Below are positions 5,101 through 45,581 of a DNA stretch of 64,000 nucleotides, one piece after another. Origin of the DNA: Nonomuraea fuscirosea. Its GTDB lineage: Bacteria; Actinomycetota; Actinomycetes; Streptosporangiales; Streptosporangiaceae. The position numbers and the translations under genes are program-made. The notes under the pieces are model-generated. The model worked only from the letters and a program-made list of their open reading frames with translations. It searched no databases and was not told the DNA's origin. Location: positions 124,001-188,000 of the forward strand of contig NZ_PVNG01000017.1 in the NCBI RefSeq assembly GCF_003001935.1, in the 5' to 3' direction. Positions within the stretch are counted from its first letter, which is position 1. Every line of letters starts with the position of its first letter.

Positions 5101-6460
5101 GGCGCCACAGTGCGACTCCTACCACCTCATCGGCGGATCCGACCTGCCCGGGATCGAGGACCGCCTGGGCGGGAAGGTGACGACGCTGCCGCGCCGGCCC
5201 GCCGACGACTTCTCCGGCCTTCCCGCGGACCACTTCGACACCGTGATCATCGACTCGGTGATCGGCGGCTTCCCCGATCTGGACCACCTCGTACGAGTCG
5301 TGGCAGGCGCCGCCCGGCTGTTGCGGCCGGGCGGCCAGGTGTTCCTCGGCGGCCTGCGCAGCCTCCCGATGCGGGAAGTGGCGTGGACCGCCGAGCTGCT
5401 GCGCGTCATGAAGCCAGACACACCGTGCGAGATCGCCAGGCAGGCGCTGGTCCGGCGCGTCGCGGCCGAGGAGGGGCTCGCGCTGGACCCGGCGTTCTTC
5501 CCCGCCCTGGTCGAGCGGATCCCGGAGCTGGCCTCGGCCGAGGTCCTGGCCAGGCCGCTCCCGGCGCCGGTGGGCGCCATCTTCGACGTCGTGCTCCGAA
5601 CGGGACCCGTCAGAGAGCCCGCCGCCGTGCCCGGCGAGCTGGACTGGGGGGAAGGCGCGCTGGACGCCGCGGTCGGCGGGCCGGTCGTGGTGCGTGGCGT
5701 CCCCGACGCGGCGATCATGGATGAGGTGCGGGCCGCGCGTCTGCTGTCCGACCCCGGCGGCCCCCGCACGCTGGCCGGCCTGCGCCGTACGCGAGAAACC
5801 GAGCGGCTGGGGGAAGCGCTCGCGGAACTGCTGGATCTCGGCGCGCGCCTCGGCCGCACTGCGAAGCTCATCCCCGTGGCGGCCGGCGAGTTCGACGTCG
5901 TCCTCGCCGACGCCGGAACGGTCGTCACCATGCCGGCGGGCGGCGAGCGGCAGTGGGAGTCGTACGCGACCGCCCCCGTGCGCGCCGCAGCCCGGAAGCT
6001 CCTGGCACCGGAGCTGCGGAACTACCTGCGCGAGAGACTCGCCGAGGTCATGGTCCCCGAGACCGTCGTCGTCCTGCCCCGGTGGCCGGTCGGCCCGAAC
6101 GGCAAGCTGGACAGGTCCGCGCTGCCACCTCCGGACGAGCACCGCCAGGGCGAGTGGACGGCGGACGGCGAGCCGCGCACGGACACCGAACGCGCCGTCG
6201 CCGGCCTCTGGCGGGCGGTGCTCTCGGTGCGGCGCGTCGGTGTGCACGACGATTTCTACGACCTCGGTGGCCACTCGCTCCTGGCCGCGCGCATCGTCGC
6301 GCGCATCCGGGCCGCCTTCGGCGTGGACCTCCCCCTGGGCGTGCTGCTGAGCAGCCCGACCGTTGCGGGAGTGGCGGAGTACCTGGACCAGGCCCGGCAC
6401 GCAGGACAGGCCGTCAGGCCGATCGACCGGGCACCACGGCAACGGAGAGAGACGACATGA
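2126..6460 (+). CDS. NRPS, one module: C-A(MT-like insert)-T
   Basis: The product is about 1,444 residues. Order: condensation domain with HHIAADGW near residue 171; adenylation domain with [11 protein letters not shown] near 646 and RLDDQVKIRGHR near 890; a methyltransferase-like insert of about 200 residues (about 970-1180); the A-domain tail with NGKLDRSALP near 1325; and a carrier domain with LGGHSLLAAR near 1380. Specificity positions read by eye are D-V-G-N-L-G-L-I-D-K. This resembles the serine pocket of the NRPS at 18723 but with Gly and Asn replacing Trp and His, so a longer polar side chain such as diaminopropionate or ureidoalanine is possible. The insert carries VLQIGCADAAL where active NRPS methyltransferases have a GCGTG loop, so it may be inactive. 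There is no thioesterase. Start: ATG 2126 after AGGGGAG. Confidence 0.93.
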   Translation: MRSARLTGDRRKLLDQLLDRHHVAPADRRIAPSAADRARLPLSFAQRRLWFIHQLDPGSAQYNVAGLVRFDGALDVPALSRSVDEIVRRHETLRTTFHQDDGEPWARVEPADPVELPLVDLSCVPEAEREAAMAARCHAAAHQPFDLTHDLMVRTLLVRTAPREHALVLCVHHIAADGWSLGVMFRELTALYEAFRAGAESPLAELSLQYADFAIWQAGQLDGPWLRGQLDHWCELLAGSRPVELPGDAAPGTERSERGASVPFDVHSDLAGRLRAFGDGERATLYMVLLTAFAVLLHRWSGQDDLVIGASIAGRNRAEIADLVGPFTNTLPLRLDLSGEPSFREALRRVRQACLDGYANQDAPFERVVDEVNPDRDPAARTPLFGQTLVVYETPHPKLRLPDLDVEVAPLYTDTAKFDLRLEFTPDHAGALHGLVEYPVDRYDEAGVRRLAEAWRTIVTAAVAEPDRSIGRLPLMDRSERERQLRLDRAGTGLAAADGCLHRLFEDSVDRRPDAVAAVDDGARLTYRELDEWANRLAHLLRESGVRHEDTVGVCLPRSAEQLAVLLGVLKAGAAYVPLDPALPAARLAFMVRDSAPRVVVTRAGLPCGDAGRTILLDDLAPRAAGLAGARPGTRVDSRSAAYVIYTSGSTGRPKGVVNEHRALVNRIRAMREAYGPGPDEAVLYKTPIGFDVSVGEWALGLASGARVVIAAQGGHRDPAYLAGLVAAERVGTANFVPSLLGAFLEEPGVAECGSLRRVLCGGEVLPPDLARRFHERLPDTELFNLYGPTEAAIDVTAHPVPLPPPATRIPIGRPVPGALLYVLDPHLEPVPDGVPGELYIGGAPVARGYHARPALTAERFGPDPFGTGGRLYRTGDRVRRLPDGTIDFLGRLDDQVKIRGHRVEPAEVEAVLAAHPKVDKAVVVARDGGGDVGLAAYVTMREEDLAAAPREERPETEAVGHAGETVRRVMGLRPSRVLQIGCADAALPLSLAPQCDSYHLIGGSDLPGIEDRLGGKVTTLPRRPADDFSGLPADHFDTVIIDSVIGGFPDLDHLVRVVAGAARLLRPGGQVFLGGLRSLPMREVAWTAELLRVMKPDTPCEIARQALVRRVAAEEGLALDPAFFPALVERIPELASAEVLARPLPAPVGAIFDVVLRTGPVREPAAVPGELDWGEGALDAAVGGPVVVRGVPDAAIMDEVRAARLLSDPGGPRTLAGLRRTRETERLGEALAELLDLGARLGRTAKLIPVAAGEFDVVLADAGTVVTMPAGGERQWESYATAPVRAAARKLLAPELRNYLRERLAEVMVPETVVVLPRWPVGPNGKLDRSALPPPDEHRQGEWTADGEPRTDTERAVAGLWRAVLSVRRVGVHDDFYDLGGHSLLAARIVARIRAAFGVDLPLGVLLSSPTVAGVAEYLDQARHAGQAVRPIDRAPRQRRETT

Positions 6461-6473
6461 CGTCGGAGGTCAC

Positions 6474-7205
6474 GTGGCAGAGGTAACAGTGAGCGAGCCG
6501 ATCGCCGCCGACACGGCCAGGTGGGCCGCCGAGCTCGGCGCGGAGGCGTTCGCGATGATGTCCCACCGAGAGCTCGGCAAGCTGGTACCGCCGGCCGAGT
6601 TCGAGCGGTTCCGCCGCCTGTGGGACGATCTGGAGCTCGACCCGGTCCTGCCCGGCGGCGGACAGTACAGGCTCCGCCGGTACGGCAGGCTGCTGGCGGA
6701 GGCGAAGGCCGGGAGCTACCGGTTCACCGCGCTCCCGCACGTGCCGTTTCGGCAGGACGCCGAGCACATCCCCGACTACGGTGGCCGGCCCAGGACGTTC
6801 GCGCCGATCCCGGACGAGACGCTGCTGAGCCCCGCGCTCACGAGCCTGGTCGCGGTGGACCTGGCGCTGGCCACCACACTGACGCCCGCCGACCGGTGGA
6901 TCGTGGGCCTGCACATGATACGGGTGGTCGCCAAGGCCGGCGCCCCCGGGCAGGCGACCCCCGAGGGCCGCCACCGCGACGGGCACGACTACGTCGGCAT
7001 GCACCTGATCGACCGGCGCGACTGCGAGGGCGGGCACTCGGTGATCTACCGGGAAGGGCGGCCGACCGTACGCCACACGCTCGCCACGGCGCTCGACTCG
7101 CTGATCGTGGACGACGACGCGCTCACGCACGAGGTGACGGCCACGGTGTCCGCCGGCCCCGACGCCGTGCGCGACACCCTGCTGGTCGATCTAAATGTCG
7201 ACTGA
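6474..7205 (+). CDS. 2OG-Fe(II) dioxygenase family protein (PF10014-like)
   Basis: The protein has 243 residues. It contains EGRHRDGHDYVGMHLI (about residues 163-178), with the HxD iron-ligand pair, and a distal His in LTHEVTA near residue 218. This layout fits the small 2OG-Fe dioxygenase family that includes free-amino-acid hydroxylases such as L-isoleucine 4-hydroxylase. A hydroxylation of a precursor amino acid is the likely role. The substrate is not evident. The GTG at 6474 follows GGAGG (6465-6469) with short 4-nt spacing. GTG at 6489, after CAGAGG, is an equally acceptable start. It lies 13 nt behind the NRPS stop and overlaps the next gene by 11 nt, so it is in the same operon. Confidence 0.8.
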   Translation: MAEVTVSEPIAADTARWAAELGAEAFAMMSHRELGKLVPPAEFERFRRLWDDLELDPVLPGGGQYRLRRYGRLLAEAKAGSYRFTALPHVPFRQDAEHIPDYGGRPRTFAPIPDETLLSPALTSLVAVDLALATTLTPADRWIVGLHMIRVVAKAGAPGQATPEGRHRDGHDYVGMHLIDRRDCEGGHSVIYREGRPTVRHTLATALDSLIVDDDALTHEVTATVSAGPDAVRDTLLVDLNVD

Positions 7206-8331
7206 CGACGCCCTCGACACCTTGCGCCGGATGGTGGAGATCCCCTCCGTCACCGGGCAGGAGGCCGCGCTCGCGCGCTATCTGGCCGGCCGTATGACCG
7301 AGCTCGGGTACGCCGCCCGGATCGACGGGGCGGGCAATGCCGTGGGGGAGATCGGCGCCTGCCACGGTCCCGTGATCATGCTCGTGGGTCACCTGGACAC
7401 GGTCCCGGGATCGCCGCCCGTACGGCAGGTCGGCGACCGGCTCTATGGGCGCGGCACGGTGGACGCCAAGGGCCCGCTCGCGGCCATGGTGCACGCGGGT
7501 TCGCGTGCCGCGGCCGAGGCGGGCGCCCGCGTCGTCGTGGTCGGCGCGGTCGAGGAGGAGGGGTCGTCCCGCGGTGCGCGGCACCTCCTGCGCTCGGCGC
7601 CGCCGGACGCGCTGGTGATCGGCGAGCCGAGCAGCGCGGGCGCGGTCGCGATCGGCTACAAGGGCCTGCTGCGCGTCGAGTGCCTGGTGCGTCGGCCGCC
7701 GTCGCACGCCACCAGCCCCGAGGAGAAGGCCGTCGAGGTGACGGTCGATCTGGTACGGGCCGTGCGCGAACGGCTCGCCGGGAACCACCCGGCGCAAGGC
7801 CCGCTGTTCGAGCGCGCCGTCCCCGTGCTCGTGCGGCTGGAGGGCGACCTCGCCTCGGCCCGCGCCGAGCTCGACTGCCGCGTACCCGAGGGGTTCGACG
7901 CGCCGGAGTTCCTCGAATGGCTGCGCGGCCTGTCGGACGGCACCACCGTGAAGGTGCTCGAGCACGTCCCGGCCGTGCGTACCGGGAGGACCGATCCGGT
8001 GGTCAGGGCGCTGAGCGCCGCGATCCGCCGCGAGGGGCGCGTGCCGGGAGCCAAGGTCAAGCTCGGCACCTCGGACATGAACGTCCTCGCCCCGGCGTGG
8101 CAGGTGCCGATGGCGGCCTACGGTCCCGGGGACTCGCGCCTCGACCACACCGAGACCGAGCACATCGTGCTCGGCGAGTACCTGTTCGCCGTGGACGTGC
8201 TGGCCGCGGCGCTGCCGGAGATCTCCGCCGCGCTGGCGGTCCGGCCTGAGCGAGGAAGGACTGATCGCCATGCGGCCGATCGTCGTGCTGGTCTCGCGGA
8301 TACGCGTGGAGGAGAAGCTGCTGCTCGGTGA
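7195..8331 (+). CDS. LysK-like M20 metallohydrolase (carrier-protein-amino acid hydrolase)
   Basis: The protein has 378 residues of the M20 family. Metal-site motifs are GHLDTVPG (near residue 65), GRGTVDAKGP (near 85) and VEEEGSSRGARH (near 120), with a C-terminal DHTETEHI. This pattern matches LysK, which cuts the finished amino acid off the C-terminal glutamate of the LysW carrier. Here it should release the amino acid built on the carrier at 15227. Its last 62 nt overlap the LysX-like gene in another frame. The basic tail after about residue 350 is unlike LysK, so the C-terminus may be a recent frame extension. It is not an ArgE for primary metabolism, judging by its neighbours. Confidence 0.88.
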   Translation: MSTDDALDTLRRMVEIPSVTGQEAALARYLAGRMTELGYAARIDGAGNAVGEIGACHGPVIMLVGHLDTVPGSPPVRQVGDRLYGRGTVDAKGPLAAMVHAGSRAAAEAGARVVVVGAVEEEGSSRGARHLLRSAPPDALVIGEPSSAGAVAIGYKGLLRVECLVRRPPSHATSPEEKAVEVTVDLVRAVRERLAGNHPAQGPLFERAVPVLVRLEGDLASARAELDCRVPEGFDAPEFLEWLRGLSDGTTVKVLEHVPAVRTGRTDPVVRALSAAIRREGRVPGAKVKLGTSDMNVLAPAWQVPMAAYGPGDSRLDHTETEHIVLGEYLFAVDVLAAALPEISAALAVRPERGRTDRHAADRRAGLADTRGGEAAAR

Positions 8332-9112
8332 GCTGGAGCGGCGCGGGATCCCCGTGGAGGTGCTCGACACGCGCACCGCGGCGTTCGGCATGGAACGGCT
8401 GGACGGTCGCTACCGGGGCGCGCTGAGCCGCGAGATCTCCCACACCAGGAATCTGTACGCCTCCCGCCTGCTTGAGCACGCGGGCCTGCGCGTGGTCAAC
8501 GACTCCAAGGTGGTCGCGCTCTGCGGGGACAAGCTCCTGACCACCCTCGCCCTGCGCGAGGCGCGGCTGCCGGTGCCCCGCTGCATGGTCACGCTCACCC
8601 CGGGCGCGGCGCTGGAAGCGCTCGACGGCTTCGGCTACCCGGCCGTGGTCAAGCCGCTGACCGGCTCCTGGGGACGGCTCGCGGCGCGCCTGGGCGGCAG
8701 GGACGCCGCCGAGGCCGTACTGGAGCACCGGGAGGCGCTGCCCGGCCCGGCGAACCAGATCACCTACGTGCAGGAGTACATCGACAAGCCCGGCCGCGAC
8801 ATCAAGGCGTACGTGCTGGGCGGCGAGGTCGTCGGCGCGATCTACAAGGTCTCCTCGCAATGGCGGACGAACACCGCGCGAGGCGGCCACACCCAGGTCT
8901 GCCCGCTCGACGACGACCTGGTGAAGCTGCTCGGCGCCACCGCGGAGGCGATCGGCGACGGAGTGCTCGGCATCGACGTGATCGAGGACCGCGACGGCAA
9001 CCGTTTCGTCAACGAGGTCAACCACACGCCCGAGTTCCACGGCGCGATCGAGGTGCTGGGGACGGGACTGGTCGGCCGCTACGTCGACCACGTGCTCGAA
9101 CGGCTTGACTAG
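8270..9112 (+). CDS. LysX-like ATP-grasp ligase loading the amino-group carrier protein
   Basis: The protein has 280 residues and belongs to the LysX/RimK ATP-grasp group. Visible features include PAVVKPLTGSWGRL (about residues 124-137, ATP-binding loop), VQEYIDKPGRDIKAYVLGG (about 167-185), and GIDVIEDRDGNRFVNEVNHT near 235-254, which carries the Mg ligands. LysX homologues join the alpha-amino group of glutamate or aminoadipate to the C-terminal glutamate of LysW. Here the partner is the 61-residue carrier at 15227, encoded in the next main unit. Glutamate is the expected substrate if the pathway parallels vazabitide or azinomycin. Start: ATG 8270, inside the end of the LysK-like gene, consistent with translational coupling. 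Confidence 0.9.
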   Translation: MRPIVVLVSRIRVEEKLLLGELERRGIPVEVLDTRTAAFGMERLDGRYRGALSREISHTRNLYASRLLEHAGLRVVNDSKVVALCGDKLLTTLALREARLPVPRCMVTLTPGAALEALDGFGYPAVVKPLTGSWGRLAARLGGRDAAEAVLEHREALPGPANQITYVQEYIDKPGRDIKAYVLGGEVVGAIYKVSSQWRTNTARGGHTQVCPLDDDLVKLLGATAEAIGDGVLGIDVIEDRDGNRFVNEVNHTPEFHGAIEVLGTGLVGRYVDHVLERLD

Positions 9113-9141
9113 CGATGACACCGACTGCGTTTGGAGGACGG

Positions 9142-9486
9142 ATGCCCGTTGACGAGATCCCCTCGGGGCTGAGGTGCGAGGGCCAGCTCGTCCCCGCTCC
9201 GGCAGGCCGGTACGACTGGCTGCACCTGCTGCTGGACGGCGCCGAGCCGGGCGAGGAGGTCGACGAGGTGGTCTGGCTGCACTACGAGAACGCCGTGGAC
9301 CCCGAGTGGCTGCGCACAGCGGCGGGAGAGCCGGCCACCCGCCTCCCGGTGACCCGCACGGAACGCCTGGTCCAGGTGCGCCTGCCGGAGCGGCCCGGCC
9401 TGCGAGTGGTCGCGATGACCCCGGCCGTGGCCGCCGTATGGGCAGAGGCGTCGGCTCCGTCCCTGCCGGGACGGGGTGGCAGATGA
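9142..9486 (+). CDS. Small protein related to the 13494 gene product (function unknown)
   Basis: The protein has 114 residues. The ATG at 9142 follows TTGGAGGA. I do not recognise a database family. By eye it aligns with the middle and C-terminal part of the 201-residue protein at 13494. Shared blocks are LRC-GQ, a G-R-DWL segment, HY followed by WLR, and a late V-LPE-P. The sequence looks like an all-beta, galactose-binding-like sandwich. It sits between the LysX-like gene and the aminotransferase, and its stop overlaps the next start (ATGA), so it is surely co-expressed. It may be a subunit of one of the carrier-bound steps. Confidence 0.7.
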   Translation: MPVDEIPSGLRCEGQLVPAPAGRYDWLHLLLDGAEPGEEVDEVVWLHYENAVDPEWLRTAAGEPATRLPVTRTERLVQVRLPERPGLRVVAMTPAVAAVWAEASAPSLPGRGGR

Positions 9487-10805
9487 GCGGGCTGGCGATG
9501 TTCGGTGGACCGCGGGCGGTGCCCGCGGAACTGGCGAGCGAGGAGCACGTCGGCTGGCCCGTCGTCACCGACGCCGAGCGCGCGGCGGTCGTGGACGTGC
9601 TCGACAGCGGTCGCTTCACCTCCAACCAGCAGGCGGGCGAGGTGCAGGCGCTCGAACGGGAGTGGGCCGAGTACGTCGGCGCCCCCCACTGCGCGGCCGT
9701 GGTCAACGGCACCGCGGCGATCGAGCTGGCGCTGGCCGCAGCCGGGATCGAGGCCGGCGCGGAGGTGCTCATGCCCGCGCTGTCGTTCATCGCCGGCGCG
9801 GTCGCGGCGGTGCACCGCCTGGCGGTCCCGGTGTTCGTGGACGTCGATCCCGTCACGTTCACGATGGACCCGGAGGCGACGCGGGCCGCGGTCACCCCGC
9901 GTACCCAGGCGATCCTGGCCGTTCACCTGCACGGCCTGCCCTGCGAGATGGACGCCCTGCGCGCGCTCGCCGCCGAACGCGGCCTGGTGCTGATCGAGGA
10001 CGCCGCGCAGGCCCACGGGGCGACCTACAGGGGACGCCGGACGGGTGCCCTCGGCGACGTCGCGACCTTCAGCCTCAACGTGGTCAAGAACCTGCCCACC
10101 TGCGGTGAAGGCGGCCTGGTGACCACCGGTGACGCGGACCTGCACCGGCGGCTGCTGCGTTACCGGCAGTTCGGCGAGGACCTGCAGGGGCGGCGCCGGC
10201 GCGACTACCTGTCGCACGTTCTGGCGGGCAACGCCAAGATCAGCGCCGTGCAGGCGGCCTTCACCCGGTGCCAGCTCGCGCGGCTGGAGGAGTACCGGCG
10301 GGCACGCGAGCGGAACGTGGAGTCGTTGCTCGGCCGGCTCCGCGAGCTGCCGGGATTCGTCCCGCCGAGTTGCCCGCCCGACCGCACGCACGCCTGGCAC
10401 ATCATTCGCTTCAGGCTCGACCCGGCGGCGCTGGACCATCCCGACCTGGCGCCCGGCGCCCTGCGCGCGGTGGCCGAGCGGGCGCTGCGCGCCGAGGGCG
10501 TACCCGTGATGCGATACCAGACGCTGCCGCTGCCGGAGCAGCCGGCCTTCCGGAGCAGGGACGGCTTCGCCGGCGGGTATCCGTGGCGGCTGCCGGGGGC
10601 CTGTTCGGCGCCGTACCGGCCGGAGGACTATCCGCGTACGCTCGCCGTGATCGAGGACTCGCTGACGTTGCAGCGCTGGCATCTCAACCCGGCCGCGGGA
10701 TCGGTGCTGCGCCGGTGCGCCGACGCCTTCGAGAAGGTGTGGGAGCACCGCGACGAGCTGGCCGCGGCGGCCAGGGCGATGGACGATCGGCAGGCGATCT
10801 CATGA
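9483..10805 (+). CDS. DegT/DnrJ/EryC1/StrS-family PLP aminotransferase
   Basis: The protein has 440 residues. Typical family blocks are seen: NGTAAIELAL (about residue 76), EDAAQAHGA (about 172) and FSLNVVKNLPTCGEGGL near 196-212, where the Lys should hold PLP. These enzymes usually aminate keto-sugars, but in carrier-protein pathways a keto group on the extended chain must be aminated. Here it replaces LysJ, the class-III aminotransferase of lysine/ornithine synthesis, which is absent. The likely substrate is the carrier-bound dihydroxy-6-oxo acid made by the adjacent transketolase. The gene is coupled by ATGA on both sides. Confidence 0.88.
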   Translation: MSGLAMFGGPRAVPAELASEEHVGWPVVTDAERAAVVDVLDSGRFTSNQQAGEVQALEREWAEYVGAPHCAAVVNGTAAIELALAAAGIEAGAEVLMPALSFIAGAVAAVHRLAVPVFVDVDPVTFTMDPEATRAAVTPRTQAILAVHLHGLPCEMDALRALAAERGLVLIEDAAQAHGATYRGRRTGALGDVATFSLNVVKNLPTCGEGGLVTTGDADLHRRLLRYRQFGEDLQGRRRRDYLSHVLAGNAKISAVQAAFTRCQLARLEEYRRARERNVESLLGRLRELPGFVPPSCPPDRTHAWHIIRFRLDPAALDHPDLAPGALRAVAERALRAEGVPVMRYQTLPLPEQPAFRSRDGFAGGYPWRLPGACSAPYRPEDYPRTLAVIEDSLTLQRWHLNPAAGSVLRRCADAFEKVWEHRDELAAAARAMDDRQAIS

Positions 10806-11605
10806 GCGGCTCTCTGACCGAGCGCGCCCTGCGCGTACGCGAGCGCATACTCAAGATCGGGGCGGGCGAGCACGGCACGCACGTGGGTGGCAGCCTGTCT
10901 GCCGCGGACCTGCTCACCGTCCTGTACGGAGAGGTGCTGCGGACCGACCCCCGCGACTGGTTCGTCCTCAGCAAGGGCCACGCCAGCGCCGCCCTGTACG
11001 CCGTCTTCGCCGAGTACGGGCTCATCCCGGAGGCGGAGTGCGACACCTACGGCGCGCCGGGCAGCCGGCTCGCCGGGCACCCGCTGCGCCGGCTCGGCGG
11101 CGTCGACTTCCCCACCGGCTCGCTCGGTCACGGGCTCTCGCTCGCCACGGGCGTGGCGCTGGCCGCCAAACGCGGCGGGCGGCTCGGCCGGGCCTTCGTC
11201 CTGATGGGCGACGGGGAGTTGCAAGAGGGGTCCGTGTGGGAGGCCGCGATGGTGGCCGCCCAGCTCCGGCTGGACAACCTGATCGCCGTCGTGGACCGCA
11301 ACCGCTGGCAGATCAGCGGGCGCACCGAGGATTGTGTCGGCCTGGAGCCGCTGCCCGACAGGTGGCGGGCGTTCGGCTGGTCGGTACGCGAGGTGGACGG
11401 GCACGACCTGGACGCGTTGCCCGGCGTGCTCGGAGCGCCGCCCCCTGCGGCGGACCGGCCCACCGTCGTGATCGCGAACACGGTCAAAGGGAGCGGCGTG
11501 CCCATCTTCGAAGATCGCAAGAAGAGCCACTACGTCAAGCTCAGCCCCCAGCTCTACGCGCGGGCCTCCGCGGGGCTACGCAACCGGGCCAGGAGGTCAC
11601 GATGA
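10802..11605 (+). CDS. Transketolase, N-terminal (TPP-binding) subunit
   Basis: The protein has 267 residues and corresponds to the first half of transketolase. The TPP motif is seen as GDGELQEGSVWEAAM (about residues 137-151) ending in DRNRWQ near 165. SKGHASAAL near 58 and GSLGHGLS near 110 are cofactor-site segments. Split transketolases occur in secondary metabolism and use carrier-bound aldehydes as acceptors. Here the subunit pairs with the next gene to move a two-carbon ketol unit to the carrier-bound glutamate semialdehyde, which would give a C7 chain. This role follows from comparison with vazabitide and azinomycin pathways and is inferred. Coupled by ATGA to both neighbours. Confidence 0.92.
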   Translation: MSGSLTERALRVRERILKIGAGEHGTHVGGSLSAADLLTVLYGEVLRTDPRDWFVLSKGHASAALYAVFAEYGLIPEAECDTYGAPGSRLAGHPLRRLGGVDFPTGSLGHGLSLATGVALAAKRGGRLGRAFVLMGDGELQEGSVWEAAMVAAQLRLDNLIAVVDRNRWQISGRTEDCVGLEPLPDRWRAFGWSVREVDGHDLDALPGVLGAPPPAADRPTVVIANTVKGSGVPIFEDRKKSHYVKLSPQLYARASAGLRNRARRSR

Positions 11606-12570
11606 CCGCGACACAGGCATGGGAGGAGACCTATGGGGGCGCGGCCCGTGACGTCTGCCGGCGTACGCTGCTGGAGCTGGCCGCGGCCGACCCGCGGGTG
11701 ATCTGCGTCGACTCCGATACCGGCGGGCTGGAGGACCTGTTCGCCGAGCTGCCACGCCAGTACGTCAACGTCGGCATCGCCGAGGCGAACATGATCAGCA
11801 TGGCGGCCGGCCTGGCCGCCGCCGGGTTGCGTCCCTTCGTCCATACGCTCAGCAGCTTCGCGGCGGCGCGGGCCTGCGAGCAGATCAAGATCGACGTGGC
11901 CGGCAACAACCTGCCGGTGCGGATCGTGGTGACGCACGGCGGCCTGTCCGCCGGGCACTACGGTCCCACCCACCACGCGGTGGAGGACGTCGCCCTCATG
12001 CGGACGATGCCCAACCTGACCGTGCTCGTCCCAGCCGACGCCGTTGAGGCCGATCTCGCGCTGCGCGCCGCGCACGAGCTGGCCGGTCCGGTGTTCCTGC
12101 GGCTGGGCCGCGCGCCCACGCCGCTCGTGCACCGGGGGCCGTGCGACTTCGAGGTCGGCCGGGCCCTGCGGCTACGTGACGGCGACGACGTGACGATCGT
12201 CGCGACGGGGCCGTACCCGGTGCTCATGGGGATCGAGGCGGTGGAACTGCTCGCGGGGCGGGGCGTACGGGCCCGGCTGCTCGATATGCACACGGTCAAG
12301 CCCCTGGACAGGGGGGCCCTGGTCCAGGCCGCGCGGGAGACGGGCGCCATCGTGACGGTCGAGGACCACGTGCTCGTCGGCGGCCTCGGCGGCGCGGTGT
12401 GCGAGGTGGTCGCGGAGGAACATCCGTGTCCGGTGCGCCGCATCGGCGTGCCCGACGCCTACAACGACCGGGTGGGTGACGAGCTGCACCTGCTCAACGA
12501 GGCAGGAGTGTCGGTGGAGCGGATCGCCGCGGCGGTGCTGGAGCTGTTGGGTGTGCGGGCGGGTCGGTGA
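11602..12570 (+). CDS. Transketolase, C-terminal (pyrimidine-binding) subunit
   Basis: The protein has 322 residues and corresponds to the pyrimidine-binding and C-terminal domains of transketolase. YVNVGIAEANMISMAAGLA (about residues 54-72) contains the Glu that activates TPP. Further blocks are RIVVTHGGLSAGHYGPTHHA (about 107-126) and VEDHVLVGGLGGAV near 253. It forms the active enzyme with the upstream subunit, overlapping it by 4 nt after an AGGAGG ribosome site. It is the last gene of unit 1. The convergent GNAT gene ends only 5 nt away, without an obvious hairpin between them. Confidence 0.92.
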   Translation: MTATQAWEETYGGAARDVCRRTLLELAAADPRVICVDSDTGGLEDLFAELPRQYVNVGIAEANMISMAAGLAAAGLRPFVHTLSSFAAARACEQIKIDVAGNNLPVRIVVTHGGLSAGHYGPTHHAVEDVALMRTMPNLTVLVPADAVEADLALRAAHELAGPVFLRLGRAPTPLVHRGPCDFEVGRALRLRDGDDVTIVATGPYPVLMGIEAVELLAGRGVRARLLDMHTVKPLDRGALVQAARETGAIVTVEDHVLVGGLGGAVCEVVAEEHPCPVRRIGVPDAYNDRVGDELHLLNEAGVSVERIAAAVLELLGVRAGR

Positions 12571-12575
12571 CGGGA

Positions 12576-13502
12576 TCAGCCGCGCCGGCCGACCGGGGTA
12601 CGCCACAGGGCCAGCAGCTCAGGCTCGCCGGCCCGGGGACAGGTGTATGCCTCCACGTCAAGGGAGGGGCGGTCGAAGAGCAGCAGCCGATCGCCGCCAC
12701 GGTCGGCGGACGACGCCAGGCGCGCGCTCACCCCTTCGACGTCGGGCGTCTCGCCGTCCTCCCAGCAGTCGGCGCCCAAGAAGCGTGCCGGGCGGGCACC
12801 CAGGTCCGCGGCGTGCCGGGCGAGGGCCCGCACGGTGGCCCGGGAGCCGGGCTCCGCCTCGCCGAGCACCGCCGCGGTGCCGCCCTCGACGGCGAACCAG
12901 GCGATGACCGGGCGGCCCGCCGCCAGCTTCGGCTGCGTGCCCCACGGATAGGCCAGCGCCGGGCGCGGGACGCCCGCCCGCACCTCCATGACCGCCTCGG
13001 AAAGGGGCTTGCCCGGACTGGCGAGGTGCCCTGTCGTGCGGTATCCGAGGCGAGCGTACAGGGGCGCGATGCCCCGCTCCACCAGCGCCCAGACGACCAC
13101 GTTCGCGACGCCCTCCGAGCGTGCCGCCCGCTCCAGCCCGAGCACCAGCTCGCGGCCCACGCCTCGCCCCTGCATGTCCTGGCGGATGGCCAGGCGGCGG
13201 ATCTGCCACAACGAGGAGTCGCGCGGGATGGCGCGCACGTAGCCGAGCGGCCGGCCGTCGCCCGAGTGCGCCATCCAGAGCCGGATGCCTGCGCGCAGGT
13301 CCGCCTCGATGCTCTCGGCGGTGTCGGAGGCGCCGTCCGCAGCGGGCAGGCCGGGCAGCATGTCGCCGTCGGCGAATGCCGCACGGGTGATCGCGGCCAT
13401 GGTGTCCAGATCCGCGCTCCCCGGCCAGGAGATCTCCGCCACGTGCCAACGGGGCGTGGCGGGCTGCTGCGTGTTCGCATCGAGGAGGTTCACATGTCGC
13501 AT
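12576..13502 (-). CDS. GNAT-family N-acetyltransferase
   Basis: The acetyl-CoA-binding segment is clear: IRRLAIRQDMQGRGVGREL, followed by a WALVERGIAPLYARLGYRTTG region typical of GNAT C-terminal strands. About 120 further residues follow the GNAT fold, longer than a minimal GNAT. The gene points against the cluster between the transketolase and the 13494/14096 pair. The 5' end is uncertain: ATGs at 13526 and 13502 would overlap the divergent gene at 13494, while a GTG at 13442 would leave a 51-bp divergent gap. None has a convincing ribosome site. Acetylating an amine of the precursor or product, as protection or self-resistance, is a plausible but unproven role. Confidence 0.82.
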   Translation of the reverse strand: MRHVNLLDANTQQPATPRWHVAEISWPGSADLDTMAAITRAAFADGDMLPGLPAADGASDTAESIEADLRAGIRLWMAHSGDGRPLGYVRAIPRDSSLWQIRRLAIRQDMQGRGVGRELVLGLERAARSEGVANVVVWALVERGIAPLYARLGYRTTGHLASPGKPLSEAVMEVRAGVPRPALAYPWGTQPKLAAGRPVIAWFAVEGGTAAVLGEAEPGSRATVRALARHAADLGARPARFLGADCWEDGETPDVEGVSARLASSADRGGDRLLLFDRPSLDVEAYTCPRAGEPELLALWRTPVGRRG

Positions 13503-14099
13503 GAAAGCACTTGGGCCACGGTCCATCGGCGCCCATCAGGGATATTCCGGACAGTTGACCTGGGGTCGTACGCCGACTGCGTGGGCATCGAGTTCACCCG
13601 GCGGCCCGGTGACGGGGCCTTCAACATCTGGCGGAACACCTTCCCCGCCGAGGACCTGCCACGAGGGGAGATCGTGGACGTCGGCGGCGTCCCGTTCTGC
13701 TTCCCCGCGGCCGACGGGCGCCACCCCGACAACCTGCGCTGCCGGGGGCAGCGGATCGAGCTGCCGGTCGGGCGGGTGGACTGGCTCTGCTTTCTGGCCG
13801 CAGCCGAGCGGCGTACGGAGGACACGTTGAGCGTGCACTACGCGGACGGCGCGACGCGTGCGCAGTGGCTGCGGGTGTCCGACTTCTGGCCGGAGACGCC
13901 GCCCAGGTTCGGCGACGTGCTCGCCTTTCGTACGCCGTACCTGCTGTATCAGCGGCACGCGCAGAGCGGGATGGCACCGGCGATCTGGCGGCAGCGGGTG
14001 CCCGTGACGATCCCCGGCGACGTCGCGGCCGTCACCCTGCCGGAGAATCCGGCGATGCACATCTTCGCCCTGACCCTGCTGACCGAGGAGGAAATGTGA
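13494..14099 (+). CDS. Unknown protein, small partner of the 14096 gene (candidate AziU2-like subunit)
   Basis: The protein has 201 residues. ATG 13494 follows AGGAGG with 5-nt spacing. The sequence is rich in beta-strand-like patterns. It contains VGGVPFCFP (about residue 64), LRCRGQRIELPVGRVDWL (about 82-99) and LSVHYADGA (about 112), which resembles galactose-binding-like sandwich domains. Its 3' end overlaps the next gene by GTGA, so the two proteins probably work together. Azinomycin and vazabitide clusters encode a two-protein aziridine-forming enzyme (AziU3/AziU2, Vzb10/11). The sizes and pairing here are compatible, but I could not compare the sequences. A shorter relative is encoded at 9142. 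Confidence 0.65.
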   Translation: MSHESTWATVHRRPSGIFRTVDLGSYADCVGIEFTRRPGDGAFNIWRNTFPAEDLPRGEIVDVGGVPFCFPAADGRHPDNLRCRGQRIELPVGRVDWLCFLAAAERRTEDTLSVHYADGATRAQWLRVSDFWPETPPRFGDVLAFRTPYLLYQRHAQSGMAPAIWRQRVPVTIPGDVAAVTLPENPAMHIFALTLLTEEEM

Positions 14100-15127
14100 G
14101 GGTCGAGCTACCGGGGATCCGGCACTGGCGGCACGACCTCACCGGGTGCCTGCACGTCGCGATGGCCGTGTTGCTCCAGCACCGCGGGCTGAACCCGGTC
14201 GAGGTGCTCGGAGCCGCCTGGAGCTTCGACCATCGCCCTGAACGGCTGCGCCGCGAGGAGTACTACTTTCCGGGAGGCGAGGACGACCTGCTGGCCGCGC
14301 TGGCTCCCTACCACCCGCTCACCTCGCGCTGGCACTCGCCGGCGGACGCCACGGCCGGGTGGCTGGAGGTCAGGGACGCCGTCGCCGCCGGGCAGCCGGT
14401 GGCCGTCTCGGCGGACAACTACCACCTGCCGTTCCGCCCGGCCTTCGGCGATGTGCACACCAACCACCTGATCACCGTGTACGGCTTCGACGACGAGCTC
14501 GACATCGCGCTCGTGATCGACTCCGTGCCGCCCCGATACCGTGGTCCGCTGCCGCTGCCCGCCCTCGCGGCGGCCCGCGACTCGGGCAACCCCGTCGTGC
14601 ACGACCGGGATCTGTTCTTCACCGGGCAACCCATCGGCAACCGCTGGCTGGAGGCCGAGGTGACCGGAGAGATCCCCGCCTTCGACCGCGACTTCGTCCG
14701 CCTGGCCATCGAACGCAACGCCGCCGCCCTGCACGCCGCCGAGCCCGCCGGCCGGTACGCCGGTCTGGCGGGGCAGGAGCGCTTCCTCCTCGACATCGCC
14801 GGCGAGCTGGCCGAGGGCAGCACGGGCGCGATCGACGAGACGTTCGTGGTGGCCGGTCCCGCCCTGGCCGTGGCCGGGCTGCACGCCGAGTGGCTCGCCC
14901 ACGCCGGCCGCGTACTCGGCGAGCCCCGCCTGCTGGAGTCCGCCCGCCTCGTCGAGCGGGTGGCACACCACTGGTCCGCCGTCCGGATCATCGCGGGCGC
15001 CGCACGGCCCGACCCGGCCGCCGCCGCGGGCTCGATGCGCTCGCGGACCCGCGAGCTGGTGGCCGACCACGTGCGGGCGCTGGAGAGCACCCGGCGCGCG
15101 GTGGGGACGACCGCCCTCGCGCGGTGA
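14096..15127 (+). CDS. BtrH-like protein, large partner of the 13494 gene (candidate AziU3-like subunit)
   Basis: The protein has 343 residues. GTG 14096 overlaps the previous stop and follows GAGGAGG. The N-terminal 200 residues resemble the BtrH_N group, a cysteine-peptidase-like fold with acyl-transfer activity. GCLHVAMAVLLQHRGL near residue 18 supplies a Cys; ADNYHLPF near 103 and VHTNHLITVYGFDDE near 120-134 supply His and Asp; DSVPPRYRGP follows. The rest is helical and unrecognised. The gene lies immediately before the AmCP gene. Two readings exist: an acyl- or aminoacyl-transfer enzyme like BtrH, or the large subunit of an AziU3/U2-type aziridine synthase. Context favours the second; the visible motif favours the first. 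Confidence 0.65.
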   Translation: MRVELPGIRHWRHDLTGCLHVAMAVLLQHRGLNPVEVLGAAWSFDHRPERLRREEYYFPGGEDDLLAALAPYHPLTSRWHSPADATAGWLEVRDAVAAGQPVAVSADNYHLPFRPAFGDVHTNHLITVYGFDDELDIALVIDSVPPRYRGPLPLPALAAARDSGNPVVHDRDLFFTGQPIGNRWLEAEVTGEIPAFDRDFVRLAIERNAAALHAAEPAGRYAGLAGQERFLLDIAGELAEGSTGAIDETFVVAGPALAVAGLHAEWLAHAGRVLGEPRLLESARLVERVAHHWSAVRIIAGAARPDPAAAAGSMRSRTRELVADHVRALESTRRAVGTTALAR

Positions 15128-15136
15128 CCGGAGTGG

Positions 15137-15154
15137 GTAGGGGATTGTCCCGAC
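15137..15154 (+). promoter_or_regulatory. 18-bp inverted repeat, candidate cluster operator (copy b)
   Basis: The site reads GTAGGG-GATTGT-CCCGAC, one base from perfect half-site symmetry. It lies in the only gap of unit 2, between the 14096 gene and the carrier-protein gene. It ends 72 nt before the carrier start at 15227, exactly the spacing of copy c before its NRPS. Confidence 0.65.
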
Positions 15155-15226
15155 TTCAGGCCGGCGGCGGTTCGGACGATCCTGATCAGGCGTGCTCAAG
15201 CACGCTCCGATCGGAGGGAGCCGTCT

Positions 15227-15412
15227 ATGTCGGATGTCGGTGTGTCCGAGGTGCGCTGCCCGGCGTGCGAGGGGGATGTCGAGATCGACTCCTCGACCCG
15301 GCAGTTCGAGATCGTCGAATGCCCCGACTGTCGTTCCGAGCTAGAGGTGATCGGCCTGAGTCCCATGACGCTGGCGCTGGCGCCGGAGGTCGACGAGGAC
15401 TGGGGCGAGTAG
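15227..15412 (+). CDS. Amino-group carrier protein (LysW-like AmCP)
   Basis: The protein has 61 residues. It has two zinc-type knuckles, CPAC (about residues 10-13) and CPDC (about 31-34), an acidic body, and the diagnostic C-terminal EDWGE. The terminal Glu side chain is where LysX-type ligases attach the alpha-amino group of the substrate. The acidic surface lets LysX, LysY, LysZ and LysK homologues dock. All four are encoded nearby. It is not for primary lysine or arginine synthesis here, because the aminotransferase step is replaced by transketolase plus DegT enzymes and the genes sit inside an NRPS cluster. ATG 15227 follows CGGAGGGA. Confidence 0.93.
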   Translation: MSDVGVSEVRCPACEGDVEIDSSTRQFEIVECPDCRSELEVIGLSPMTLALAPEVDEDWGE

Positions 15413-15413
15413 C

Positions 15414-16451
15414 GTGGCTGCCGATCGGCTCCGGGTCGCCGTCTTCGGCGCCTCCGGCTACGTCGGGGGCGAGTTGCTGCGACTGCTGCTCGGGCATCCG
15501 CAGGTTGAGATCGCCGCGGCCACCTCTACCCGGTACGCCGGGCGCCCAGTGGGCACGGTGCACCCCAACCTGCGGGGCCTGACCGGCCTCCGCTTCCGCT
15601 CGCCGGAGGAGATGGGCGGCTTCGACGTCGTCTTCCTCGCGGCCGAGCTGCAGACGGCGATCAAGGTCGGCGCCGACCTGGCGAAGCGCAACGAGTGCCT
15701 GATCGACCTCAGCCCCGCCTACCGGCTGCGTGACCCGGCCGTCTTCGAGCGCTACTACGGCACCGCGCACACCGCCCCTGAGCTGCTGGGCTCGTTCGTC
15801 AGCGGGCATCCGGAGGACAACCGGGCGGCGCTGCGCACGGCCCGCCTCGTCAGCGTCCCCGGCTGCATGGTGATCGCGACGCTCATCGCGTTGCGGCCGT
15901 TCGCGGCGGACGACCTTGTGGACGGCGACGTGATCGTGGACTGCCGCATCGGCTCCAGCGGGTCGGGTGCCGCGGCCGAACGCCTCAACCTGCACGCGGA
16001 ACGCAGCGGGGCGCTGCGCGTGTTCGCCCCGCACGGGCACCGGCACGAGGCCGAGGTGTGCCAGGCCAGCGGACTCGCCGTGCGGATGACCGCGACCGGC
16101 GTCGAGGCCGTACGTGGAGCGCAGGTGGTGTGCCACGTCCCGCTACGCAGGCCGCTGAGCGAGGTAGAGATCCGCCGCCTGTACCGGGACGCCTACGCCG
16201 ACGAGCCGTTCGTCCGCGTCATCGCGCAGCGCCGTGGGCTGTACCGGCTGCCTGAGCCCAAGATCCTCATCGGCTCGAACTTCTGCGACGTCGGCTTCTC
16301 CGTCACACCGGACGGGCGCCGCGTCGTCGCCGTGGCCGCGCTGGACAACCTGATGAAGGGCAGTGCGGGCACCGGCGTGCAGTGCCTGAACATCCGCATG
16401 GGCTGGCCGGAACGGCTCGGCCTGGCGTTCGCGGGTCTCCATCCGATCTAG
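15414..16451 (+). CDS. LysY/ArgC-like carrier-bound acyl-phosphate reductase
   Basis: The protein has 345 residues, as usual for ArgC/LysY. The NADPH-binding loop FGASGYVGGELLRLL (about residues 10-24) and the catalytic SVPGCMVIATLIAL (Cys near 147) are clear. A GSNFCDVGF segment near 284 is present. It should reduce the carrier-bound gamma-glutamyl phosphate to the semialdehyde, the acceptor for the transketolase. GTG 15414 lies 1 nt after the carrier-protein stop, so expression is tightly coupled. Confidence 0.92.
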   Translation: MAADRLRVAVFGASGYVGGELLRLLLGHPQVEIAAATSTRYAGRPVGTVHPNLRGLTGLRFRSPEEMGGFDVVFLAAELQTAIKVGADLAKRNECLIDLSPAYRLRDPAVFERYYGTAHTAPELLGSFVSGHPEDNRAALRTARLVSVPGCMVIATLIALRPFAADDLVDGDVIVDCRIGSSGSGAAAERLNLHAERSGALRVFAPHGHRHEAEVCQASGLAVRMTATGVEAVRGAQVVCHVPLRRPLSEVEIRRLYRDAYADEPFVRVIAQRRGLYRLPEPKILIGSNFCDVGFSVTPDGRRVVAVAALDNLMKGSAGTGVQCLNIRMGWPERLGLAFAGLHPI

Positions 16452-16466
16452 AGTCCGGGGGCGGTC

Positions 16467-17309
16467 ATGTCAGACGGGATCACCGTGGTCAAATGCGGTG
16501 GCGCCGCAGGGGTCGATCCGGCGGCCGTGTGCGCCGCCGTCGCGGCCGAGTCGGCGGCCGGTCGCCGTCCTGTCCTCGTTCACGGCGCCTCCGCCGAGAC
16601 CACGGCGCTGGCGGGCAGGCTCGGCGTGCGCCTGCGCGAGCTCACCGGCCCCGGCGGCGAGGTCAGCCGCCACACCGACGCCGCCGCGCTCGAAGTGCTC
16701 GTCCTGGCCCTGGCGGGCCGGGTCAAGCCGGCGCTGGTCGCCGAGTTCGGGCGGCTCGGCGTGCCTGCCGCTGGGCTCACCGGCCTCGACGCGGGGCTGC
16801 TGCGGGCCCGCCGCAGCACCACGGTGCGCGCGGTGGTGGACGGGCGCGAGGTCGTGGTGCGCGACGACCACAGCGGCCGGCTGACCCGAGTGGATCCCAC
16901 GCTGCCGCGGCTCCTGCTCGACGCCGGGCTGCTGCCGGTCGTCTCTCCACCGGCGCTGGGCGAGGACGGCGCGCCCGTCAACGTCAACGCCGACCGGGTG
17001 GCCGCCGCCCTGGCGGTGTCCCTGCGTGCCGAGCGGTTGGTCCTGCTGACAGCCGCGCCCGGAGTGCTGGCCGACCCGTACGACGAGCGGAGCGTACGCA
17101 GGGACTACCGGCTCCCGCCCCGGGGGGTCGCGGACCCGGCGGTGGGCGGCGGCATGACCGTCAAGCTCCTGGCGTCCAGGCAGGCGCTCGAGGGCGGCGT
17201 ACCGGAGGTGCTCATCGCCGACGGCCGCTCCGGCGACGCCGTACGGCAGGCGCTGGCCGGTACCGCCGGCACCCGCATCGCCCTCACCGACTCCACAGAC
17301 CTCCGGTGA
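16467..17309 (+). CDS. LysZ/ArgB-like amino acid kinase acting on carrier-bound glutamate
   Basis: The protein has 280 residues of the amino acid kinase family. VVKCGGAAGV (about residues 7-16), VLVHGAS (about 36), VNVNADRVAAALAVSL (about 172-187) and GGGMTVKLLAS near 228 are the nucleotide- and phosphate-binding parts. Reaction expected: ATP-dependent phosphorylation of the side-chain carboxylate of carrier-linked glutamate. It lies 15 nt after the LysY-like gene in the same unit. Confidence 0.92.
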   Translation: MSDGITVVKCGGAAGVDPAAVCAAVAAESAAGRRPVLVHGASAETTALAGRLGVRLRELTGPGGEVSRHTDAAALEVLVLALAGRVKPALVAEFGRLGVPAAGLTGLDAGLLRARRSTTVRAVVDGREVVVRDDHSGRLTRVDPTLPRLLLDAGLLPVVSPPALGEDGAPVNVNADRVAAALAVSLRAERLVLLTAAPGVLADPYDERSVRRDYRLPPRGVADPAVGGGMTVKLLASRQALEGGVPEVLIADGRSGDAVRQALAGTAGTRIALTDSTDLR

Positions 17310-17382
17310 ACGCGTCACCGGCCGGCCCCGCCCGCCCGACGAACGCTTCGGCGGCCGAACCCGCCCAGGAGGCTCCCGCCCG

Positions 17383-18705
17383 ATGAACGCCGTACCGGCC
17401 GACCCCGTACTCCTTCTGCAGCGGCTCATCCGTTTTCGCAGTGTGAACCCACCCGGGGAGGAGGGCCCCTGCGTCGCCTACGTCGCCGACCTGCTTCGCG
17501 ACGCGGGCATCGACGTACGGCTCCTCGCCCGCGACCAGGACCGTCCCAACCTCGTGGCCAGGATTCCCGGGCGGGGACTGGCGCCGCCCCTGCTGTTGCA
17601 CGCTCACGCCGACGTCGTGCCGGTCGAGGGCCAGGACTGGACGGTCCCGCCGTTCGAGGGCCGTCTTTCCGACGGGCACGTCTGGGGGCGGGGCGCCATA
17701 GACATGAAGGGCGGCCTGGCCATGATGCTCAGCGCCCTGACGCGGCTGCGCGCGGACGGCGAGGACCCGGCCGGGGACGTACTGGTCGCGGTGTCGCCCG
17801 ACGAGGAGACGGGAAGCGAGATGGGTGCCCGTTACCTCGTCGATCACCACGCCGAGCTGTTCGACGGCGTCCGTTACGCGATCGGCGAGGACGGCGGGGC
17901 GATCTTCGGTGCCGGAGGGCGGCGATGGCATCCCGTCGTCGTGGCCGAGAAGCGGGCCTGCTGGATGCGGGCCACGCTACGCGGCCGGGGCGGCCACGCC
18001 TCCAGGCAGGGCTGGTCAGGCACGGCCATGGCCGCGCTGACCCGCATGCTCGGCGCGCTCCAGACCGGCCGGTTGCCCGCCCACGTGACCCCGGCGTTCG
18101 AGCGGATGGCCGCCGAGCTCGCCGCCTTCTCCGACGGGCCGCTGGCCGGCCGCATGAAGGCGCTGATCCACGACCCGGCGGCGGAAGTGCCGTACGACCT
18201 GCTCCCCGAGGCGGACGCCGTCTATCTCGACTCGGTGATCAGGAACACCGCCAACGCCACCATCGTGCGTACCAGCGACAAGATCAACATGCTGCCCACC
18301 GAGATCACGGTCGACATCGACGGCCGGATTCTGCCCGGCGAGTGGAGCGCGGACGACTACCTCGCCGAGCTGCGGACGCTGATCGGCCCCGAGCCCGAGA
18401 TCGAGGTGCTGCTGGAAGGGCGGCGGTCGGCTCAGCCGGTGTTCGGCACCTTCTACGACTCGCTCGTCTCGGTGTTGCGCGAGAAGGACCCGGACGGCGT
18501 GCCGCTGCCCATGATGACCCCCGCCTCCACGGACGCGCGCCTTTTCGCCGGGCTGGGCATCGCCTGCTACGGGTGGCTGCCGCTGCTGACGTCGCCCGGC
18601 AGTCGCTACCAGGACACGATGCACGCGGCCGACGAACGCGTACCGGTTGAGGCGGTGCGCTTCGGGGCCGACTGCGTGCACCGCCTGCTGTCGACGTACC
18701 GCTGA
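17383..18705 (+). CDS. Second M20-family metallohydrolase (ArgE/DapE type)
   Basis: The protein has 440 residues. Metal-site motifs are LLHAHADVVPVEG (about residues 72-84), GRGAIDMKGGLAMML (about 103-117) and SPDEETGSEMGARYL near 138-152. The dimerisation insert includes GRGGHAS. It is longer than the LysK-like enzyme at 7195 and belongs to a different branch of the family. Carrier-protein release is already covered by the first hydrolase, so this one probably removes another amide, such as an acyl, acetyl or carbamoyl group. The substrate is unknown. It lies between the LysZ-like gene and the acyl-loading NRPS. AGGAGG sits 9 nt before the ATG. Confidence 0.85.
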   Translation: MNAVPADPVLLLQRLIRFRSVNPPGEEGPCVAYVADLLRDAGIDVRLLARDQDRPNLVARIPGRGLAPPLLLHAHADVVPVEGQDWTVPPFEGRLSDGHVWGRGAIDMKGGLAMMLSALTRLRADGEDPAGDVLVAVSPDEETGSEMGARYLVDHHAELFDGVRYAIGEDGGAIFGAGGRRWHPVVVAEKRACWMRATLRGRGGHASRQGWSGTAMAALTRMLGALQTGRLPAHVTPAFERMAAELAAFSDGPLAGRMKALIHDPAAEVPYDLLPEADAVYLDSVIRNTANATIVRTSDKINMLPTEITVDIDGRILPGEWSADDYLAELRTLIGPEPEIEVLLEGRRSAQPVFGTFYDSLVSVLREKDPDGVPLPMMTPASTDARLFAGLGIACYGWLPLLTSPGSRYQDTMHAADERVPVEAVRFGADCVHRLLSTYR

Positions 18706-18722: not shown

Positions 18723-23966
<5,244 letters not shown>

Positions 23967-43506: not shown

Positions 43507-43576
43507 AGGGTAAATGACGTATTGCCGCAGATGGTGGTCCGTGTCACCTTTTCTCCATCCAAGAGAGAGGAACGCG

Positions 43577-45580: not shown

Positions 45581-45581
45581 C

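Follow-up and report, generated by a model that had tools for sequence, protein, structure and literature searches.

A Candidate Gene Cluster for an Aziridine-Bearing Nonribosomal Peptide, with a Probable Carrier-Protein Route to a C7 Diamino Acid, in Nonomuraea fuscirosea

Overview of the Cluster

A stretch of 64,000 nucleotides from Nonomuraea fuscirosea (contig NZ_PVNG01000017.1, here C17, positions C17:124001-188000; genome of 12.18 Mb in 93 contigs), referred to below as the window, carries genes that we read as a cluster for an aziridine-bearing nonribosomal peptide. This reading joins the synthesis of a seven-carbon (C7) diamino acid on a LysW-type carrier protein, the closure of an aziridine, a nonribosomal peptide synthetase (NRPS) module for the C7 unit, an acyl-loading start by a fatty acyl-AMP ligase (FAAL) and later deacylation by an acylase; we give the whole a probability of roughly 0.78. 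The genes themselves are identified from sequence; the reactions, the succession in which steps and residues follow one another, and the deacylation are inferred from them. Aziridines are uncommon among natural products, and the azabicycle-bearing azinomycin alkylates DNA.

The cluster genes from position 2114 to 37248 all lie on the plus strand, with the sole exception of the gene for a GNAT acetyltransferase, and the cluster seems to extend about 12 kb leftward beyond the window, to about C17:112.3k, for a total of about 50 kb (C17:112-162 kb). All genes named in a preliminary description of this DNA are present, while homologues of the aziridine synthase subunits AziU2 and AziU3, a short AziU2 paralogue, a sulfotransferase, the GNAT gene and the left part of the cluster had been overlooked. 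For comparison, a public contig collection gave 111 pattern matches, 100 of which encode an AziU3 relative, and the locus counts given below refer to the best 80 of these 100. The loci span at most 10 kb on either side of the AziU3 gene, so absences from them are weak evidence. They were divided by an identity cut, with no tree, into clade A (L040-L073; 34 loci, 47-62% identity to the window) and clade B (L074-L119; 46 loci, 34-41%).

A Probable Carrier-Protein Route to a C7 Diamino Acid

The carrier-protein cassette lies in two halves, both on the plus strand. The first encodes a LysK-like M20 hydrolase (7195-8331), a LysX-like ATP-grasp ligase (8270-9112), a DegT-family aminotransferase (9483-10805; PF01041, E 3e-87) and a transketolase split into an N-terminal (10802-11605; PF00456, E 2e-35) and a C-terminal half (11602-12570; PF02779 and PF02780). 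The second encodes the LysW-type amino-group carrier protein (15227-15412; PF21344, E 4e-15), a LysY-like reductase (15414-16451) and a LysZ-like kinase (16467-17309). The genes of each half are co-directional, and neighbours overlap or stand at most 99 bases apart (start codons were chosen by hand), with four-base overlaps at four gene pairs. As the preliminary description had it, the carrier genes are split between two units, the cassette being interrupted by the GNAT gene (12576-13526), which runs in the opposite direction on the minus strand. Its identification of LysW, LysX, LysY, LysZ, LysK, the split transketolase and the DegT enzyme is borne out by Pfam and NCBIfam matches. It had also noted that LysJ is lacking, and no class-III aminotransferase of the LysJ type was found among the window's open reading frames (ORFs) run against Pfam, which cover the part to the right of 49 kb only partly.

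The LysX-like protein scores 280 bits against an NCBIfam cut-off of 276 (TIGR02144) and the LysZ-like protein 235 against 223 (NF010659), the LysK-like hydrolase reaches 277 bits with TIGR01902 (cut-off 163), and LysW attains 56 bits where the Pfam cut-off is 27. Among PDB entries, LysX matches 3vpd best; LysZ matches 3u6u at 165 bits, the best entry outside 3u6u and 3wwm being 2buf at 107 bits; and LysY matches 5eio at 292, 2ozp (ArgC by its PDB name) at 290 and 2i3a at 186 bits. We take 3u6u, 5eio, 2ozp and 3vpd to be Thermus LysZ, LysY, LysY and LysX, respectively. The window LysW, with its C-terminal EDWGE, is the one LysW-family match in the whole 12.2-Mb genome, and the same tail occurs in all 50 loci where LysW was found among the 80 examined.

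These genes could in principle serve primary lysine or arginine metabolism, and the models passed by LysX and LysZ are indeed named after lysine biosynthesis. Against this stand the genome's own argC and argB, located on contig C19, and the transketolase, DegT and NRPS genes that adjoin the LysW genes in the same direction. The trees also speak against it. Each of the two trees, LysY/ArgC and LysZ/ArgB, held 25 rows, namely 12 ArgC or ArgB proteins, 12 LysW-type proteins (10 belonging to AziU3 clusters, that of the window among them, and 2 encoded at other loci, in Actinophytocola oryzae and genome G038) and 1 Thermus protein; a long-branch row, L172, was retained although it lies below the argB cut-off. 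The two groups split at 100/100 in both trees. Thermus LysY joins the LysW-type side at 100/100, and the placement of Thermus LysZ is weak (73/58). The preliminary description had made its proposal depend on whether LysX and LysZ group with the primary enzymes: LysZ, together with LysY, stands apart in the trees, LysX was compared through model and PDB scores, and LysK through model scores; the proposal was not refuted in this comparison. On the trees and the gene context, primary metabolism was rejected as highly improbable. Further LysY/LysZ-like genes occur away from the AziU3 clusters in A. oryzae (G345:C3:168774-170529) and in G038 (C29:32297-37845), where they perhaps belong to other carrier-protein pathways.

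The presence of the carrier-type genes and the separation of LysY and LysZ from ArgC and ArgB thus support well the proposal, already made in the preliminary description, of a C7 diamino acid, and the cluster very probably builds a unit of the 2,6-diamino-5,7-dihydroxyheptanoate (DADH) type on the LysW carrier. LysX would attach glutamate to LysW, LysZ would phosphorylate and LysY then reduce the carrier-bound glutamate, the split transketolase would add two carbons, the DegT enzyme would aminate the product, and LysK would free the DADH-type unit from the carrier. In the vazabitide A system, too, the DADH of a nonribosomal peptide is made on a carrier protein, Vzb22 (PMC9303977).

Aziridine Synthase Homologues and a Second AziU2-Like Protein

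Right of the GNAT gene, in the second half of the cassette and on the plus strand, lie the genes for an AziU2 homologue (U2; 13494-14099) and an AziU3 homologue (U3; 14096-15127), overlapping by four bases. U2 matches PDB entries 7wuw and 8gs1 at E 1e-38 and gave no Pfam match (ORF 13494-14099); U3 matches 8gs1 and 7wuw at E 2e-55, carries PF14399 (BtrH_N) and fits the family alignment. A sulfotransferase (Sulfotransfer_5) is encoded at 1150-1890 on the minus strand (PF19798, E 7e-20) and has homologues in related cassettes; its proposed role is the activation of one hydroxyl group on the C7 unit. According to a review, AziU3/U2 functions as an aziridine synthase by displacement of sulfate (PMC12559475), and in azinomycin biosynthesis DADH is sulfated before the aziridine forms (PMC9570651). 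Because AziU2 and AziU3 homologues and a sulfotransferase are encoded, the C7 unit is very probably converted further into an aziridine, which the sulfotransferase and then the U2/U3 pair would form by sulfate displacement.

Alternatively, the homologues and the sulfotransferase may catalyse another reaction, in which case the cluster would make the C7 diamino acid in its linear form or a derivative without an aziridine ring. Homology is no proof of reaction, and an extra AziU2-like protein, described below, makes the protein set unlike that of azinomycin. However, U2 and U3 occur together in 79 of the 80 loci (U2 in 34/34 of clade A and 45/46 of clade B), their genes overlap in the window, and a sulfotransferase accompanies them in many genomes, so that we regard a non-aziridine product as improbable. 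The sulfotransferase gene itself was seen in 5 of the 34 clade A stretches and in five of six clusters read over 60-80 kb; the sixth, from S. termitum, proved to have it too after a longer read. A condensation-adenylation-thiolation module likewise accompanies the cassette, along with the sulfotransferase, in relatives.

The azinomycin B cluster of Streptomyces sahachiroi shares the AziU2 and AziU3 homologues with the window. It also resembles the window gene set in its split transketolase, its aminotransferase and the order of sulfation and aziridine closure (PMC9570651). The window differs by adding the FAAL, the acylase and the diaminopropionate and ureido genes; azinomycin sequence was compared through two structures only.

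The extra protein, termed mini-U2, consists of 123 amino acids and is encoded at 9115-9486 on the plus strand, its gene overlapping the DegT gene by four bases. In blastp it shares 28% identity with the window U2 (E 2e-10) and lacks an internal stretch of about 32 residues. A profile-profile match between the two proteins is not counted here, the mini-U2 set used for it having included U2 sequences. Its AlphaFold model, built from 18 sequences, has a pLDDT of 82.5 and a pTM of 0.69, and the four PDB matches of the model at E<=0.001 are all AziU2 chains, with TM-scores of 0.58-0.59 by query length. A second AziU2-like stretch was found in 17 of the 80 loci, all of them in clade A (17/34, against 0/46 in clade B), as a separate ORF in 16 and in frame with U2 in A. 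oryzae, where mini-U2 and U2 form a single reading frame of 300 amino acids (L040:9102-10001). This natural fusion suggests that mini-U2 and U2 act together; mini-U2 would then help or tune aziridine formation.

A Recurring Adenylation-Domain Code

The adenylation (A) domains were read as codes, nine positions by alignment and the tenth taken as lysine. A stand-alone NRPS of condensation (C), A and peptidyl carrier protein (PCP) domains at 26379-29696 (plus strand; domain matches and code alignment), here NRPS3, bears the code DTFDFGGVAK. In a survey of 79 locus sets with an A domain read (the window included, and some sets overlapping, such as L040 and Aoryzae), the pattern D(V/T)FDFG(G/A)V(A/T)K occurred in 62. 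As this code accompanies the cassette in both clades, it is probably that of the C7 or azabicycle unit, and NRPS3 is the module that would load the C7 unit. Downstream, two acyl-CoA dehydrogenase-like proteins (30570-31730 and 31727-32881, both plus), each recurring with the cassette, may desaturate the C7 unit, to judge from their frequent co-occurrence with the C7 module.

Two further NRPS proteins are encoded in the window, both on the plus strand. The one at 18723-23966 has the architecture FAAL-PCP-C-A-PCP, by domain matches and code alignment, and its code, DVWHISLIDK, resembles that for serine. The other, NRPS1 (2114-6460), consists of C, A and PCP domains with a methyltransferase-like insert within the A domain (4961-5800), whose Pfam matches (E 0.002-0.04, the best 0.0024) are all below cut-off. 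Its code, DVGNLGLIDK, was found, among the A domains read, in the window and A. oryzae only. A stretch similar to the insert (33-36%) exists in S. parvulus, S. longispororuber and YIM 130001, and A. oryzae matches its last third only. Besides the C7 unit, the peptide would contain serine from the FAAL module, a 2,3-diaminopropionate or beta-ureidoalanine residue, and a further two residues supplied by the NRPS modules beyond the left edge of the window.

Diaminopropionate and Carbamoyltransferases

Enzymes for 2,3-diaminopropionate are encoded on the plus strand by an SbnA-like gene (32878-33897; TIGR03945, 408 bits, cut-off 350) and an SbnB-like gene (33881-34891, start approximate; TIGR03944, 398 bits, cut-off 327). 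A carbamoyltransferase at 227-1153 on the minus strand (PF02729/PF00185) carries TRWQTTG and HDLP. In the biosynthesis of viomycin and zwittermicin, beta-ureidoalanine is formed by a diaminopropionate transcarbamylase marked by (T/S)RWQTTG with HDLP; the diaminobutyrate enzyme has TRWQSMG, and a review calls the boundary between the two unclear (PMC4581275). The window protein shares RWQTTG and HDLP with the viomycin and zwittermicin enzymes, by published motif, whereas the peptide context there is unlike that of the window. Both motifs of the window protein recur in the A. oryzae homologue, and at these positions the ArgF-like protein whose gene neighbours argB on C19 reads DTWVSMG and HCLP. 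Since both Sbn-like proteins score above cut-off and the carbamoyltransferase bears this signature, the peptide likely holds a beta-ureidoalanine residue, as far as can be read from the genes. With a NodU/CmcH-type O-carbamoyltransferase at 35149-37248 (plus strand; PF16861, PF02543), the FAAL-NRPS, the diaminopropionate pair and the two carbamoyltransferases of the preliminary description were all recovered by Pfam and NCBIfam. An additional ornithine-carbamoyltransferase-like gene, 38% identical to that of the window, lies on the same contig (G000:C17:274009-274899).

The FAAL Start, the Acylase and the Fate of the Acyl Group

The FAAL-PCP-C start module is complete, and the FAAL would acylate the first residue. 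To the left of the window, C17:116158-118683 encodes a penicillin-amidase-type (Ntn-hydrolase) acylase (PF01804, E 5e-189). Its Ser300 aligns to residue 1 of the beta chains of known acylases, and an N-terminal hydrophobic stretch, judged by eye, resembles a signal sequence. Twelve AziU3 clusters have a FAAL domain of at least about 43% identity (L074, L080 and L109, with acyl ligases of 28-30%, were left out), and nine of them possess the acylase, including all seven with a FAAL of at least 50% (the window counted). Identity to the window-side acylase amounts to 56% in A. oryzae, 53% in S. longispororuber and S. parvulus and 52% in YIM 130001, and to 32% in S. termitum and Nocardia NRRL S-836 and 31% in A. 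coloradensis and W. humida. None of eight 40-kb regions without a FAAL (G024, G034, G038, G117, G216, G239, G250 and G302) contains the acylase. In Catenulispora rubra, an acylase gene (42%) lies about 17 kb from a FAAL gene (51%) (G357:C2:18053-39911), not on the contig of its AziU3 locus, L065; the two are perhaps the other part of a broken cluster.

Known systems offer a precedent. In pyoverdine maturation the Ntn-hydrolase PvdQ takes off the acyl group loaded by PvdL (PMC6206403), and the telomycin cluster contains the acylase Tem25 (PMC10587159). Both combine acyl loading at the NRPS start with an Ntn-hydrolase acylase, as does the present cluster, whereas their peptides differ, and PvdQ is distant from the window-side acylase (E 8e-14, where the top match reaches 4e-59). 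The acyl group may therefore be a temporary cap that the apparently secreted acylase would strip outside the cell, and the final product is possibly no lipopeptide; this is the weakest step of the pathway. The preliminary description had the C7 unit enter a lipopeptide begun by the FAAL. The FAAL start and the C7 route stand, and 'lipopeptide' becomes uncertain for the end product, given an acylase gene shortly beyond the left edge of the window and its occurrence with the FAAL in nine of the twelve clusters.

It is also conceivable that the C7 unit is made and used while the acyl group is retained, giving a true lipopeptide, and that the acylase has some other function, for instance self-protection. 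In favour of this, the start module is complete, and the glidonin paper considers two acylases, GdnD and Tem25, as candidates for detoxification or self-resistance (PMC10587159). Furthermore, the FAAL does not always need the acylase, since no acylase was found genome-wide at E<=1e-20 in the FAAL-bearing genomes of Goodfellowiella and Lentzea fradiae, and G116, another FAAL cluster, has one on another contig only. Against retention, the acylase gene directly adjoins the FAAL gene in three genomes (S. parvulus, S. longispororuber and YIM 130001) besides its recurrence with the FAAL, and PvdQ sets the example of deacylation. We hold a true lipopeptide to be less likely than not, though more likely than a non-aziridine product, and lean towards removal of the acyl group.

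Beyond these FAAL clusters that lack a neighbouring acylase, several points weigh against the reading as a whole. The acyl-ligase models that match best are FAALs, yet the scores are below their cut-offs, and the acylase gene lies 5.3 kb beyond the window edge. The LysK-like protein, at 345 bits (E 7e-103), falls slightly short of the NF003367 cut-off of 363, and LysW, at 51.3 bits, of the TIGR01206 cut-off of 53.2. The A-domain codes, the serine-like DVWHISLIDK among them, were read from motifs. Finally, the recurring code was not found in 17 of the 79 sets; the module may lie beyond the stretch read, yet G302 is without it over 40 kb.

Acetyltransferase, Second M20 Hydrolase and Possible Self-Protection

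The GNAT acetyltransferase encoded between the cassette halves (PF00583, E 1e-10) recurs in 28 of the 34 clade A loci and in none of the 46 of clade B. A second M20 hydrolase, not LysK-like by NCBIfam models (17383-18705, plus strand), shows a similar spread (23/34 and 0/46). In clade A the two stand together in 22 loci, with GNAT alone in six and M20 alone in one. Their co-occurrence leads us to guess that the GNAT enzyme sets an N-acetyl cap that the second M20 hydrolase takes off. An N-acetyltransferase is also present in a vazabitide-related cluster (PMC12690601). No AlkZ-type self-resistance gene was found on contig C17 in a genome-wide search, which gave nine AlkZ-family matches above cut-off.

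We tentatively propose an unrecognised branch of aziridine peptides, with a synthase remodelled by mini-U2, a dedicated C7 A domain with a conserved code, and N-acyl (FAAL/acylase) and N-acetyl (GNAT/second M20) caps that would keep the alkylating product harmless inside the producer; the proposal as a whole is a possibility rather than an expectation. The conserved A code, the second AziU2-like subunit and the possible acyl cap can be tested as guides to recognising and interpreting such clusters. They also bear on self-protection in producers of alkylating peptides whose cluster contig, as in the genome studied here, has no AlkZ-family gene.

Distribution and Remaining Genes

A search of 345 genomes from the order gave AziU3 homologues in 18, that of N. 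fuscirosea among them. FAAL clusters of the window type occur in eleven other genomes among those examined, which share the gene set in part. The preliminary description considered that the product of this combination may be new; the combination is not unique, being shared almost fully by A. oryzae and for the most part by other actinomycetes. A FAAL together with the azabicycle cassette was not found described in the titles and abstract openings of the openly available azabicycle and aziridine papers that the search covered. The cluster of A. oryzae DSM 45499 (L040, L131-L134) shares the cassette genes and the DVGNLGLIDK code, with identities of 72% for the pyridoxal-phosphate (PLP) enzyme, 70% for SbnA and the carbamoyltransferase, 61% for TauD, 56% for the acylase and 50% for the FAAL. 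It differs in its in-frame fusion of mini-U2 to U2, in the loss of most of the methyltransferase-like insert, in gene order, in a weak SbnB-like match (30%) and in giving no match to the O-carbamoyltransferase.

The genes named to the left of the window are those for a TauD dioxygenase, a class-V PLP enzyme, an NRPS (C-A-PCP), the penicillin-amidase acylase and a second NRPS (C-A-PCP). The N-terminal end of the TauD-family dioxygenase reaches into the window (1-242; whole gene C17:123253-124242, minus strand; PF02668, E 1e-45; 61% to the A. oryzae cluster). As other parts of the cluster are viomycin-like, a capreomycidine-type (VioC) identity was considered for this protein and dropped, neither of its two PDB matches at E<=1e-5 being so named. 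Within the window, the plus strand further encodes a 2-oxoglutarate-Fe dioxygenase (6483-7205, start approximate; PF10014, E 5e-51), a LuxR/LAL-type regulator (24022-26247; PF00196, PF13191) and a thioesterase (29696-30559; PF00975, E 3e-29). A row of hydantoinase A/B-type genes with a major facilitator superfamily (MFS) transporter, right of the cluster at 43514-48523, showed no link to it.

Two loci of the survey deserve mention. L062, on a contig labelled Candidatus Melainabacteria, has U2 and U3 (54-55% to the window) together with GNAT, which perhaps reflects a binning error. Actinocrispum wychmicini carries two different AziU3 loci, L061 and L088, one from each clade.

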